Source: a bacterium (GTDB lineage Bacteria; Hydrothermota; Tepidihabitantia; Tepidihabitantales; Tepidihabitantaceae). Taken from it: a DNA stretch of 55,713 nucleotides. The stretch is taken from assembly GCA_035505375.1 (NCBI GenBank), contig DATJQV010000089.1:1-55713 (forward strand). The letters are read 5' to 3'. Shown here piece by piece: positions 1,014 through 39,483 of this stretch. The notes below the pieces were generated by a model. The model did no database searches, was not told where the DNA came from, and worked only from the letters and a program-made list of their open reading frames with translations. Position 1 is the first letter of the stretch; every line of letters begins with the position of its first letter. A program made the position numbers and the translations under genes.

Positions 1014-1301
1014 AAAGCGTCCTGCAAAGCTCGCCAGAAAGCTCGCATCAGAGTTCGCTGGAAAGTGCCTTAGAAAGCAAACTCGAAAGCTCACTTCAGA
1101 GCATCTTCCATCGCTCAGTTCAGAACTCGCTTCATCGCTTCGCGCATCGCTCGTGTCAAAGCTCAACGCATCGCTTCTTTCATCGCTCGCTGCAAAGCTC
1201 AGCCGAAAGCTCGCGCGAAAGCTCCTCTGAAAGCTCGACTCAAAGCTCGGCTCAAGGCTCGTTTCATGGCTTCTTCGAAAGCTCCTCAAAGGGCCAGCCC
1301 C
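1014..1301. repeat. 12-nt-periodic array 1, 24 units
   Basis: There are 24 consecutive 12-nt units with consensus ANNGCTCNNNNC; the commonest core is AAAGCTC or ATCGCTC, followed by five variable bases. Examples are AAAGCTCGCCAG (1026), ATCGCTCGTGTC (1146) and AAAGCTCGACTC (1230). No indel breaks the phase. Read on the minus strand the array encodes an SFxx/SDxx tetrapeptide repeat without stops. The plus-strand KAxx frame contains a TAG. A gapless second copy lies at 32018-32305. Similarity between copies continues past the array for about 70 bases (GGCGACCCCT-TATGCGG to GTTATG). Function unknown. Confidence 0.9.
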
Positions 1302-3872: not shown

Positions 3873-5090
3873 ATGGGTATCGCTCCGCTCTTGCCACCAA
3901 AGCGTAAGAAGAACCGCACACTCCCCATCTTGCGGGAAGTCATAGCCGTGCTGGCATGGTCTTACGTGCTGGTGAAGCTCTTCGTCTACGACGTTGACGT
4001 GTACGTGGTCGAACGACTATGTCCGGCCATCGGGTGGGTCATACGCTACAAGTTCGTCGTTCTCGTAGTACTACTTGCGGTGGTATGGACGGCGACAAGG
4101 AAGCGGACCGTCCTGTTGTGGGGGCTGTACATCGCCTTCTATCCCTTCATCGTCCTGTTCTACAGAGTCCCGCTCTTCATATTCCGTCGGCGGAGCTGGG
4201 TACTGGCCATCGCCGTGCTGGACTCAGCGATGTCCTTCTTCAGGACGACCAGGGTGAATCTAGTCCTGTTGGCTCTGCTTCTGTCATCAGGGGTGATCGT
4301 GCTCGTGACAGCGCACAGGTGGCTACTCTGGCCGACAACCGCCTCACTTGCGGTTGTCCTGCTGTTCGCGTATGGTCTGATAATCGTTCGTGTATTCAAG
4401 ACACCTGCAGTGTACCGTACGTTTACTGCGATACTGACTAAAATCCGAGGCGACAGGTCGGCCTTCGCTGTAGACGAGAGCCTAAGGGGTCTTCCGGTAG
4501 CGAGCTACGATACGAGCCAGATGGCAAAATGGAGCGGTACCCTGCAGACGTCTGTCTTGTACAACCGGCTCTGTCTGTTCGGGGCGAGAAAGCTGAGCGA
4601 CTTCCGCAAAAGCGGCTTCATCTACTTCTCATCTGTAGCGACACTCCTCCTGCTCCTGATACTGACCGTCATAGTCTTCGCGCTCATCAACCTGGGATGC
4701 TACAAGATAGACCATGCATCGTTTGCCGCGTTGCATCCGCCAGCCCAGTTCACCTTTTTCTACTACAGCTTTAACCGCCTAGTCTTTAACTCCATACCCG
4801 AGCTGTCGCCTGCGATCCCGTTTACCCAAGCCGTGTCCATGGCAGAGTCGTTCCTTGCGTTACTACTGGGACTGGTATTTGGCTCTTTGCTCCTGTCCGA
4901 GAGAAAGCAAAAGCGTATGGAGGAGCTGGACGACACTATCAGGCGCTTGGAGGCTGAGGGCTCCGAAATGGAGCTTTTCATTCGCGACGAGTACCAGCTG
5001 AGCTGCGTTGAAGATGCGATGGCCGAACTGGTCAAGATGAAGGCGTCCTTTGCGACGTTCCTCTACAAGATATCAGAAAGCATCCCCTAG
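3873..5090 (+). CDS. Multi-pass membrane protein with an ion-channel-like pore region
   Basis: The 405-residue protein has about eight hydrophobic segments and a basic N-terminus. The last part resembles a 2TM pore module: a helix (ATLLLLLILTVIVFALI), then a re-entrant-like stretch YYSFNRLVFNSIPELSPA, then a second helix (FLALLLGLVFGSLLLS) leading into a charged coiled-coil tail. The stretch sits where K+ channels carry SFVTLTTVGYGDISP, but the TVGYG filter is absent. The family is not recognised; a transporter or a non-selective channel is possible. The ATG lies 3 nt after a 10-codon ORF (3837-3869). Confidence 0.6.
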   Translation: MGIAPLLPPKRKKNRTLPILREVIAVLAWSYVLVKLFVYDVDVYVVERLCPAIGWVIRYKFVVLVVLLAVVWTATRKRTVLLWGLYIAFYPFIVLFYRVPLFIFRRRSWVLAIAVLDSAMSFFRTTRVNLVLLALLLSSGVIVLVTAHRWLLWPTTASLAVVLLFAYGLIIVRVFKTPAVYRTFTAILTKIRGDRSAFAVDESLRGLPVASYDTSQMAKWSGTLQTSVLYNRLCLFGARKLSDFRKSGFIYFSSVATLLLLLILTVIVFALINLGCYKIDHASFAALHPPAQFTFFYYSFNRLVFNSIPELSPAIPFTQAVSMAESFLALLLGLVFGSLLLSERKQKRMEELDDTIRRLEAEGSEMELFIRDEYQLSCVEDAMAELVKMKASFATFLYKISESIP

Positions 5091-5494
5091 GGGCCAGAAG
5101 CACCACTGAGAAACGGGGACACGACAAATAGGTTCGGACGCGCCCGCGTTCAACATCGGGCCACACCCCCGCTCCGCCCGGCCATCAAGGCCATCGTGGA
5201 TTCTAGATTGACGATTGCAGGTTGGCGGTTGGCCGCGGCTTCGCCGCGAGGCCGGGATTGAGGCTGAGGCTAAGGTAGAGAGACGACGCGGATCTGCGTC
5301 GCAGCTACAAGCCCCAAGCCTCAAGCCTTATGCTGGCCCAAACAGCTCGCAGCCGCGACCGACGGCCAATCCCTGATCCTGAGCCACCAACCCGTGGTCC
5401 CTCCTCCTGATTGACATCCCGCCCGCGAGTTCCTAGACCGCCAATAGGCAGGGCCCTGGCCTTTCAGCCCTGACGTCCGCCTCTGTCATTGGCC
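5091..5494. other. Gene-free spacer with dispersed repeat words
   Basis: No gene seen. It contains word repeats found elsewhere in the window: GATTCTAGATTGACGATTGC (from about 5200), and a short palindromic word with GCGTCGCAGCTACAAGCC followed by CCAAGCCTCAAGCC (about 5288-5327), which recurs at 10741 and 11613. Confidence 0.6.
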
Positions 5495-32017: not shown

Positions 32018-32305
32018 AAGGCTCCCTTGAAAGCTCGCTGGAAAGCTCGCCTCAGAGTTCGCCGGAAAGTACATTGGAATGCATACTCGAAAGCTCACTT
32101 CATAGCATCTTCCATTGCTCAACTCAAAGCTCGTCACATCGCATCGCGCATCGCTCATCTCAAAGCTCCGCGCATTGCTTCTCACATCGCTCGCTGCAAA
32201 GCTCAGTCGAAAGCTCGCGGCAAAGCACCTCCGAAAGCTCAGTTCAAAGCTCATCTCAAGGCTTGTTTCATGGCTTCTTCGAACGCTCCTCAAAGGGCAT
32301 GCCCC
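32018..32305. repeat. 12-nt-periodic array 3, 24 units, copy of array 1
   Basis: The 24 units (ANNGCTCNNNNC) align one-to-one with array 1 at 1014-1301 without gaps. I count about 45 mismatches in 288 bases (84% identity): about 10% in the first seven positions of the unit and about 23% in the last five. The minus-strand SFxx frame is open here too. The array ends about 135 nt before the start of the gene at 32441. Similarity to the array 1 locus continues to about 32374. Confidence 0.9.
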
Positions 32306-33357: not shown

Positions 33358-34812
33358 GTGGGAGTACTGCTTCTTACAATGTTACTGACGACTTACAGCT
33401 ACGAGTTGGGCACAGTACTGGGTCGACCGGACACCATCAAGCTGCTTGTCTCACCGCAGAAGGTCGTGGAACGCGGCGATACCATCGTTGTGCTCGACGA
33501 AGAACGGCCCGCCCATTTGACCGTCAAGCACTACACCCTCGACGGATTCTTCATCAGGGAGCGTCCATACGCCCCCGCCACTGACAGCGGCTTGTTCGCT
33601 GGCCTCTGCAGGGCACCGGACTCCGTGGAGGCTCGACGCCTCGCGGGACTCGTTGACGACGAGTTGTACCCGGAGTGGAAGCGAACTGCAGCCGGTCCGG
33701 ATGGTGCAACGTGGTTGGTCTACTCCTGGATCATGGGCGACGGCGGTGGACTCACCCTGGCCAAGCTGAGCGGAGACGGCGGTAGCGTGGCGGCCTCCGG
33801 CTACGGCCCGAGTGAGTTGGATTTCAGAATCGGCTCCATGCGCGACCGCTTGGTGCACGACAGCCGCGACTGGCCGGTCTTCCTCAGCATCGGGCAGAGG
33901 TACGTCTACCTGATTGCATCAGATTTCCTTTGGCAGTACGACCAACAGGCCCGTTTCATCCGCAAGGTCGGCATCGATGCCGAAGGCTGCTTCAAGGAAC
34001 CGGTGGGTATCGCTTTGGGGCCGGATGGAGAGTACGTCACGGATTTCAGACTGGGTCGTGTCTGGCAGCATTCAGCCAAGTACAGGTCGTCTTGGCGTAG
34101 ACTGCCCGAAGAACACTCCAGTCCCCTGCCTGAACCGGAGAGCCCGACCTACCTCTGCACAGGAGGCGAAGGAAGGGTCTGGGTCACCAATGTCCTCGCT
34201 CCAGGACTGCGTCTCCTCGGCTTCCGTAGCTTCCGAGAATTCGCGTTCGGGCGGCAATGGGGAGTCGACCCGGAAGGGCACGACTTCCGCGTTGCCCTGA
34301 AGGACAGCCTGCTGGTCTGTCTCGCCTACACCGGTGGTCTGCATCGAGTGTTCATCTACGACACGCTTGGGCGCTTCGTCCGGACGCTAGGCTTTGAATC
34401 CAACGAAGAACACAAGGCCGACGCTCTGGTCGGTTTGGATAATACCGGCACCATCTACGGCGAGATGTCGTTTCCGCACCGGATGTTTCGACTCTCGCTC
34501 GACGGTGAAGACACGACGTGGCTGCAACTCCCAGACTCGACGCGGGGCCACCAACTCAGTTGGCTCCAGACCTGGCGCGTCGCCGACACGCTCTACGTGC
34601 TGGGCCAACGGTTCGTCGGACGCGACAGTCCGCCTGCCCACTGCGTCTTCGTGTTCGTGGCGGACCGGTTCAGCCATATGATAGACGAATCCGAATTCGA
34701 GGACGGACTGCGCGGATACTTCACAGACATGGCGATGGACGCGGATGGCGATTTCTGGTTCGTGGACATCTGGGATCGGACCGTCAGAGAGTACCGCCAG
34801 AAGCACAACTAG
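33358..34812 (+). CDS. Secreted beta-propeller-like protein
   Basis: GTG start; 484 residues with a short hydrophobic N-terminus (VLLLTMLLTTYS) that may be a signal peptide lacking the usual positive charge. The rest consists of repeated beta-blade patterns of the NHL/6-bladed-propeller kind: GPDGATWLVYSW, EPVGIALGPDGEYVTDFRLGRV, GGEGRVWVTNV, YDTLGRFVRTLG, AMDADGDFWFVDIWDRTVREY. Such proteins bind ligands or other proteins outside the cytoplasm. The exact role is unknown. It is a single gene. Confidence 0.65.
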   Translation: MGVLLLTMLLTTYSYELGTVLGRPDTIKLLVSPQKVVERGDTIVVLDEERPAHLTVKHYTLDGFFIRERPYAPATDSGLFAGLCRAPDSVEARRLAGLVDDELYPEWKRTAAGPDGATWLVYSWIMGDGGGLTLAKLSGDGGSVAASGYGPSELDFRIGSMRDRLVHDSRDWPVFLSIGQRYVYLIASDFLWQYDQQARFIRKVGIDAEGCFKEPVGIALGPDGEYVTDFRLGRVWQHSAKYRSSWRRLPEEHSSPLPEPESPTYLCTGGEGRVWVTNVLAPGLRLLGFRSFREFAFGRQWGVDPEGHDFRVALKDSLLVCLAYTGGLHRVFIYDTLGRFVRTLGFESNEEHKADALVGLDNTGTIYGEMSFPHRMFRLSLDGEDTTWLQLPDSTRGHQLSWLQTWRVADTLYVLGQRFVGRDSPPAHCVFVFVADRFSHMIDESEFEDGLRGYFTDMAMDADGDFWFVDIWDRTVREYRQKHN

Positions 34813-34833
34813 CCCAGCGATTGTCCGCTTGGG

Positions 34834-34852
34834 TCCCCGCGAGAATCGGGGA
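34834..34852 (+). terminator. Weak hairpin after the propeller gene
   Basis: TCCCCG and CGGGGA around a 7-nt loop, 22 nt after the stop. There is no T-run, so this is a weak call. Confidence 0.3.
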
Positions 34853-35024
34853 TTGGCGCTGAGTCTAGCCGTTTCGGACCCGGCATGGAAATTCCCGGCG
34901 ACATAACAGGAGACTCGGGACGCAGGTCGCTTTCCTTGCCAACAGCGTGAATCGGAGGCCATCAGCCGTCTTAGTGTGCTTGTACCTCTGTGGTGAACTC
35001 TGAGCGCGCTTCTGCGCACGCTGC

Positions 35025-35052
35025 TTGACCAAGCGTAGAATCAAAGTATCAT
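35025..35052 (+). promoter_or_regulatory. Promoter of the 22-residue peptide gene
   Basis: TTGACC, 16-nt spacer, TATCAT, with an ordinary leader of about 16 nt to the ATG. Confidence 0.65.
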
Positions 35053-35074
35053 CACCCCAACCAAAGGAGACCCA

Positions 35075-35143
35075 ATGCCTTGCAAGAAGTGTGGCGTGAA
35101 GAAGACCGCCAAGAAGACCGCGACTAAGAAGACCAAGAAGTAG
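35075..35143 (+). CDS. 22-residue Lys-rich CxxC microprotein
   Basis: ATG follows AAAGGAGACCCA, an excellent ribosome site. The peptide opens MPCKKCGVKK and continues with TAKK/TATKK/TKK repeats to TAG. It has one CxxC pair (Cys3, Cys6), ten Lys and no acidic residue. The unit is complete: promoter, ribosome site, ORF and a terminator 22 nt after the stop. The tail resembles the basic tails of histone H1-like and HU-like proteins, so nucleic acid binding is plausible. Two such peptides could share a zinc ion. No known family comes to mind. Confidence 0.7.
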   Translation: MPCKKCGVKKTAKKTATKKTKK

Positions 35144-35165
35144 CTTCAACGTCAGTCTACCGAGT

Positions 35166-35185
35166 GGGGGCGCAAGCCCCCTTTT
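35166..35185 (+). terminator. Intrinsic terminator of the microprotein gene
   Basis: GGGGGC, loop GCAA, GCCCCC, then TTTT. A textbook Rho-independent terminator. Confidence 0.85.
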
Positions 35186-35401
35186 GACTCTGAGAATCAG
35201 GATGAGATCTAACCACAAAGTCACGAAGACACCAACGCCAGAACCAGCCGATGTCAGAAGTCAGATGATAGATGCTAGAAGTCAGAAGTGGCAGGCACCC
35301 GGACTTCTGCATTCTGCGCTCTGCATTCTGACTTCTGAATTCGTCCGGACCTTTGTGTCTTCGTGTCTTGGTGGTAAAACTCCCCTGTCCGAGTCCGTCT
35401 G
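35186..35401. repeat. Repeat words upstream of mfd
   Basis: The spacer contains CCACAAAGTCACGAAGACAC (about 35212), CTTCTGCATTCTGCGCTCTG-type words (about 35300-35340) and TTTGTGTCTTCGTGTCTTGG (about 35354). All recur elsewhere in the window. I see no promoter for mfd here. Confidence 0.6.
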
Positions 35402-38509
<3,108 letters not shown>

Positions 38510-39132: not shown

Positions 39133-39483
39133 CTACAGCCCGCGCTTTGCCGTCTTCCTTGACGCAACGAAGATGGCTACAAGTTGCCTGGCCTCATCAA
39201 GGAGCCGTTCAAGCTCCGACCTCGGTCCGCACGACAGATCTGCAAGCAACTGCATCCAGTAGACAGATTCGTCCGCCTCCTCTTCCACGATGGCGAGCTT
39301 GGCGATGAAATCCGCCCGAGACCGCGCGCGCTGTGCGGAACGATAGTTGGCTCCCACTGACGTGGCTGAACGCAGCAATTGCTTCGCGATGACCTGAAAC
39401 TCAACCCGCCTGGGTAGACCCGAGCAGAAGCGAATAACGTCCAGCGCGAACCGTCGGGTCCGCAGCTCAAGATCCGTTTTCAC
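39133..39483 (-). CDS. Four-helix-bundle protein (23S rRNA intervening-sequence type), copy 1
   Basis: 116 residues of the family first known from proteins encoded in 23S rRNA intervening sequences: RFALDVIRFCSGLPRR, QLLRSATSVGANYRSAQRARSRADFIAKLAIVEEEADESVYWMQLL. Four amphipathic helices, probably a homopentamer as in the solved members. The function is unknown; relatives (Avd) bind reverse transcriptases of diversity-generating retroelements. A close paralogue lies at 40814, on the other side of the thiolase gene. Confidence 0.9.
   Translation of the reverse strand: MKTDLELRTRRFALDVIRFCSGLPRRVEFQVIAKQLLRSATSVGANYRSAQRARSRADFIAKLAIVEEEADESVYWMQLLADLSCGPRSELERLLDEARQLVAIFVASRKTAKRGL

Follow-up and report, generated by a model that had tools for sequence, protein, structure and literature searches.

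The region from 35025 to 35185 of our window, by which we mean the whole stretch of 55,713 nucleotides that was analysed, raises the question whether a promoter, a ribosome binding site, a very short reading frame and a terminator packed into 161 bases form a genuine gene and, if they do, what its product might be for. The host genome comprises 3.6 Mb, and its closest named relatives are MAGs of candidate division WOR-3. All four elements had been put forward in an original prediction made from the DNA letters, and each was found in its place; the unit agrees with the window base for base. The sigma-70-type promoter (35025-35052, plus strand) consists of a -35 box TTGACC (35025-35030) and a -10 box TATCAT (35047-35052) separated by 16 nt and matches 10 of 12 consensus positions; no second promoter-like site was detected on the plus strand between 34000 and 36000. 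A Shine-Dalgarno site, AAAGGAG (35063-35069), lies 5 nt upstream of the ATG. This site had been described as strong; it is indeed present, but with AAAGGAGA it falls one base short of the version in most relatives (AAAGGAGG). The ORF (35075-35143, plus strand) encodes the 22-mer MPCKKCGVKKTAKKTATKKTKK, which contains no acidic residue, and includes 1.9 perfect copies of the 12-nt tandem unit AAGAAGACCGCC (35099-35121), encoding KKTA, whose copy number varies among relatives. An intrinsic terminator, GGGGGCGCAAGCCCCC-TTTT with six G-C pairs and a GCAA loop (35166-35185), closes the unit, whose predicted RNA measures about 125-127 nt. The next gene, 216 bases beyond the T-run, is mfd (35402-38509, plus strand), which codes for the transcription-repair coupling factor with the Pfam domains UvrB_inter, CarD_TRCF_RID, DEAD, Helicase_C and TRCF. 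Between terminator and mfd (35212-35380) an imperfect inverted repeat, ACCACAAAGTCACGAAGACACCAA ... TTTGTGTCTTCGTGTCTTGGTGGT, was noted in the window genome (G000), with similar sequences in G003 and G001, and beyond mfd the minus strand carries a gene for a 23S rRNA-intervening-sequence-type protein (39133-39483, PF05635).

For an estimate of chance occurrence all ORFs of 15-100 aa preceded by a Shine-Dalgarno site and with at least 40% Lys were collected. The micropeptide ORF was the only such frame in the complete 55.7 kb, and none occurred when the window was shuffled 30 times in 2-mer blocks; it is therefore not a product of chance. Pattern, DNA and protein searches revealed first homologs in other genera as well as in three sister species. 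Among the sister species the homology extends as a block from the -35 box to the terminator or about 50 bases beyond, with 83-88% identity; the spacer between stop codon and hairpin has diverged and the hairpin is retained.

The DNA upstream of mfd was then compared across the phylum. Of the 24 informative genomes in the WOR-3 order, 23 have the cassette of promoter, Shine-Dalgarno site, ORF and terminator in front of mfd; they are distributed over four families (f1, f3, f4, and f5). Carriers in family f1 are G000, G003, G001, and G002 of genus g1 and, from other genera, G008, G017, G013, G009, G012, G006, G016, G007, G010, G014, and G011; family f5 contributes G021, family f4 G020, G023, G025, and G027, and family f3 G024, G022, and G019. 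G015, where the region ends at the end of the contig, and three members of the order with no mfd match stand outside this count. All 23 carriers share a near-consensus promoter with a spacer of 16-17 nt at the same place and a Shine-Dalgarno site of the AGGAG or GGAGG type, and 22 of them have a GC hairpin shortly downstream of the peptide's stop codon. The single exception is G004 (L033, 5516-5700), where promoter and Shine-Dalgarno site are kept, ORF and terminator are deleted and the promoter now stands before mfd. This genome is a natural knock-out of the ORF, and since the frame was lost there, the peptide is dispensable at least in G004. No comparable ORF was found upstream of mfd in 27 genomes outside the order, one of these regions being partial.

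A profile search in 65 genomes of the class yielded a single copy per genome, always at mfd and with a broken second copy in G003 as the only exception. The f3 type, G025 and the long types escaped this profile and were recognized by their position. A mobile element is an unlikely cause of the distribution, given one detectable copy per genome that, the G003 duplicate aside, is always situated at mfd. In G003 the broken and the intact copy are separated by a DUF6922 gene and an AbiEii-type gene on the minus strand (L030, about 4310-5445); the pair looks as if it had been inserted with duplication of the promoter and the start of the gene. A replicon origin was also considered and dropped, as the region had no match among plasmids.

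Selection on the reading frame speaks for a protein product. Six non-overlapping genome pairs showed 17 substitutions; 9.8 nonsynonymous codons were to be expected and four were seen (P < 0.0005), under a simple null model in which the same base changes were placed at random in the frame and none of 2000 simulations gave a value as low. The peptides of G024 and G022, 18 residues each, are identical despite differences at nine third positions. Lys codons drift between AAA and AAG while the residues stay; purifying selection acts on the amino acids, not on the Lys codons. The original prediction had named a small RNA as the alternative should the frame not recur in relatives; the frame recurs in 23 genomes, with mostly synonymous changes. 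That the ORF is incidental to a small RNA would suit the autonomous transcript predicted above, yet the selection at the amino acid level, the divergent spacer between stop codon and terminator and the lack of an Rfam match (none at E ≤ 1 within 34800-35450) leave this reading scarcely tenable, and as a sole explanation it is ruled out by codon pattern and Rfam result.

The position beside mfd is constant, and the gene on the other side is not. The upstream neighbor of the cassette belongs to one protein family in genera g2, g3, g4, g6, and g7, putatively PorV-like by our own reading; in g5 its place is taken by a minus-strand gene without relation to it, and in g1, f3, f4, and f5 by still other genes. 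As this neighbor changes between lineages, general inertia of gene order does not explain the adjacency of peptide and mfd. The mostly synonymous changes and the constancy of this pair lead us to regard the micropeptide ORF as a real protein gene tied to mfd and very probably translated, as had been predicted. The link to mfd itself had escaped the first reading. With mostly 17-28 codons this securely conserved gene is of a size that annotation normally discards, and it establishes an order-wide connection between a micropeptide gene and a universal repair factor.

The alignment gives a consensus head M-[A/P]-C-[M/K/A]-K-[R/K], typically M-[A/P]-C-M-K-R in the relatives, followed by a Lys-rich stretch, for example VKKTAKKTAKK. 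The 17 short sequences all share Met1, Cys3, Lys5, and a further Lys downstream, and with the long forms counted Cys3 is present in 20 of 23 genomes. A CxxC motif, earlier taken as the defining feature and, as one possibility, as the basis of a zinc-linked dimer, can be read from MPCKKCG in G000 and G003. Cys6 occurs solely in these two of 23 genomes, which makes the CxxC a local novelty; nearly all relatives carry Arg or Lys at position 6, and even the broken G003 copy still has the head MPCMKRG. For the family we reject a zinc site, and a zinc-linked dimer as such appears very improbable.

The length of the peptide ranges from 17 to 86 aa, with 17-28 in most genomes, 54-86 in some genera (G014 54, G007 66, and G010 86 residues) and about 40 in one partly masked copy. 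The difference lies mostly in added Lys-rich repeat units (KKTA, AKKK, and similar): genus g1 has two KKTA/KKTV units, G017 three, G012 and G006 four, and the gene of G007 is a tandem array. Such variation fits a disordered polycation resembling a histone H1 tail and not a zinc fold. The three copies that lack Cys3 are all long or medium, and every copy of up to 28 residues has it, a pattern that would fit a need of short peptides for a link between two chains; the sample is small, and G007 with 66 residues and a Cys is an exception.

Searches of Pfam, NCBIfam, PADLOC and Rfam returned no family for the 22-mer, in agreement with the earlier statement that no known family resembles it. The search against chains of solved structures at E ≤ 10 also found no match to the peptide, a weak test for a query so short and of such low complexity. 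Literature searches, with most subscription journals outside their scope, returned nothing on WOR-3 bacteria with mfd and a small protein and nothing relevant on Lys-rich small DNA-binding peptides. The four databases do not cover the peptide, and the literature searched does not mention it. The long relatives, likewise not noticed at first, weakly match the HC2 and H1-like families (E 0.0002 to 0.09), which could be a matter of composition only. The best of them reaches 19.6 bits against a cut-off of 40 for PF07382 and 21.9 against 80 for NF038053, and the 22-mer matches neither model. Chlamydial Hc2 (PF07382) and the Burkholderia H1-like proteins (NF038053) are Lys-Ala repeat polycations of variable repeat number, as are the peptides described here, and G007 and G010 align with them weakly. 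In contrast to these, our peptides are mostly 17-28 aa long, start with a MAC or MPC head and are fixed to mfd. Because the scores are far below the curated cut-offs, we do not claim membership in an H1-like family; the peptide would act like an H1 tail and, by this test, belongs to no known family of the class.

Peptides of similar size and Lys content are known from the ribosome: bTHX and other tiny ribosomal proteins are Lys-rich, comprise about 20-30 aa and are presumably highly expressed. A ribosome-associated cationic peptide seated in an rRNA pocket, like bTHX of Thermus, would agree with the size, the charge, the Shine-Dalgarno site and the independent expression unit. We nevertheless consider it unlikely, since solved chains, Pfam and NCBIfam offer no match, a length that varies at least fourfold does not suit a fixed pocket, the gene is linked to mfd and not to ribosomal genes, and it is absent from G004.

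Taken together, a minimal nucleic-acid-binding Lys-rich peptide, whose strong promoter probably also feeds mfd by read-through, is our preferred reading, with a probability of roughly 55%. An electrostatic binder of nucleic acids accounts best for a peptide that is Lys-rich, disordered and tolerant of changes in repeat length. The peptides are, like the H1-like class, Lys-rich repeat polycations with few or no acidic residues, and they look like nucleic-acid binders, as was suggested earlier. The sequence of events we propose starts from the observed conserved unit of promoter, Shine-Dalgarno site, frame and terminator adjoining mfd. As residue 2 is Ala or Pro, the initiator Met would be removed, Cys would become residue 2 and may then join two short peptides. 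The product would bind DNA or RNA electrostatically in the manner of a histone H1 tail, with a length adjusted as repeat units are gained or lost. If nucleic acid is indeed bound, the peptide would belong to the smallest DNA- or RNA-binding proteins that a genome encodes, and its relatives would offer a natural series for studying the influence of length and of a single cysteine on binding by a Lys-rich tail.

Counting against the nucleic-acid binder are the presence of HU in the genome, which does not lack a basic nucleoid protein, and the loss of the ORF from G004. HU-family genes were found in 27 of 29 genomes searched, which rules out a replacement of HU; the peptide would add to the standard nucleoid protein. 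Within family f1, genera g1, g2, g4, and g5 have one HU-family gene (none in G005 and G017), and sister lineages mostly have two.

A different polyanion might be the ligand. The KPAA repeat tail of AlgP, whose repeat number varies naturally, is H1-like, binds DNA and is required for the positioning of polyphosphate granules (PMC9239181). The Lys-rich tandem-repeat C-terminal domains of AlgP and PhaF, with their variable repeat number, resemble the peptide; however, they are KPAA tails attached to larger proteins that also have an N-terminal domain, whereas the peptide consists of KKTA units and has no such domain (PMC9239181). The N-terminal domain of AlgP is separate and helical, and with this part missing we hold a binder of polyphosphate or another polyanion, drawn by analogy to AlgP, to be improbable.

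How mfd is transcribed behind the cassette bears on the second part of the preferred reading. Nine genomes (G017, G013, G009, G012, G006, G016, G024, G022, and G019) have the ATG of mfd only 6-8 nt downstream of the hairpin, inside its T-tract or adjoining it; a separate mfd promoter has no room in them except within the peptide gene. In families f8 and f9, which serve as outgroups, there is no peptide, and mfd has a near-consensus promoter of the TTGAC type with its -10 box ending 9-10 nt upstream of the start codon. Our inference is that the peptide gene originated downstream of an ancestral mfd promoter, in front of mfd itself, which would now be fed wholly or partly by read-through. Read-through of the terminator would yield much peptide and little Mfd, and it suggests a simple route to low Mfd levels: placement behind a strong small gene. 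This supply is not universal, since a plausible promoter of mfd's own is present in g6 (TATAAT close to the mfd start) and in some f4 genomes.

The same order of small ORF, terminator and mfd makes a leader peptide the strongest rival by anatomy. Attenuators of the trp/his type consist of a short ORF, a terminator and then the structural gene. Translation through the Lys run would here decide on terminator formation and control mfd by attenuation or translation sensing; the position of the mfd ATG in the nine genomes would suit this, as would the distance of just 4-5 nt from stop codon to hairpin in f4 and f5, at which a terminating ribosome could mask the hairpin. Unlike trp/his attenuators, the cassette revealed no antiterminator and its downstream gene is unrelated to lysine. 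In nearly all genomes the antiterminator energies did not stand out from those of shuffled sequences; G010 (1/100) and G009 (5/100) ranked lowest, and their sisters G014 and G013 were not equally strong. The choice of AAA or AAG drifts at constant residues, the gap between stop codon and hairpin varies from 4 to 22 nt, and the peptide length varies as given above. We therefore grant the leader peptide a modest chance at best. Somewhat more doubtful still is an extension of the nucleic-acid-binding reading, which we offer as speculation: an undescribed family of the smallest H1-tail-like peptides, with one N-terminal cysteine each, might have arisen in the 5' leader of mfd and coat nucleic acid at transcription-repair sites together with Mfd, and the intervening terminator, a structured RNA of a kind reported to stall polymerase, might let Mfd tune its own supply.

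Degenerate arrays with a period of 12, 24 or 36 nt and units such as GCTCGCTGCAAA are found elsewhere in the window (1131-1261, 1675-1989, and 32021-32253) and at L032 (2164-2222 and 2399-2462). One such array directly adjoins the peptide promoter in G002, and sequence of similar appearance lies upstream of the promoter in G001 and in the broken G003 copy.
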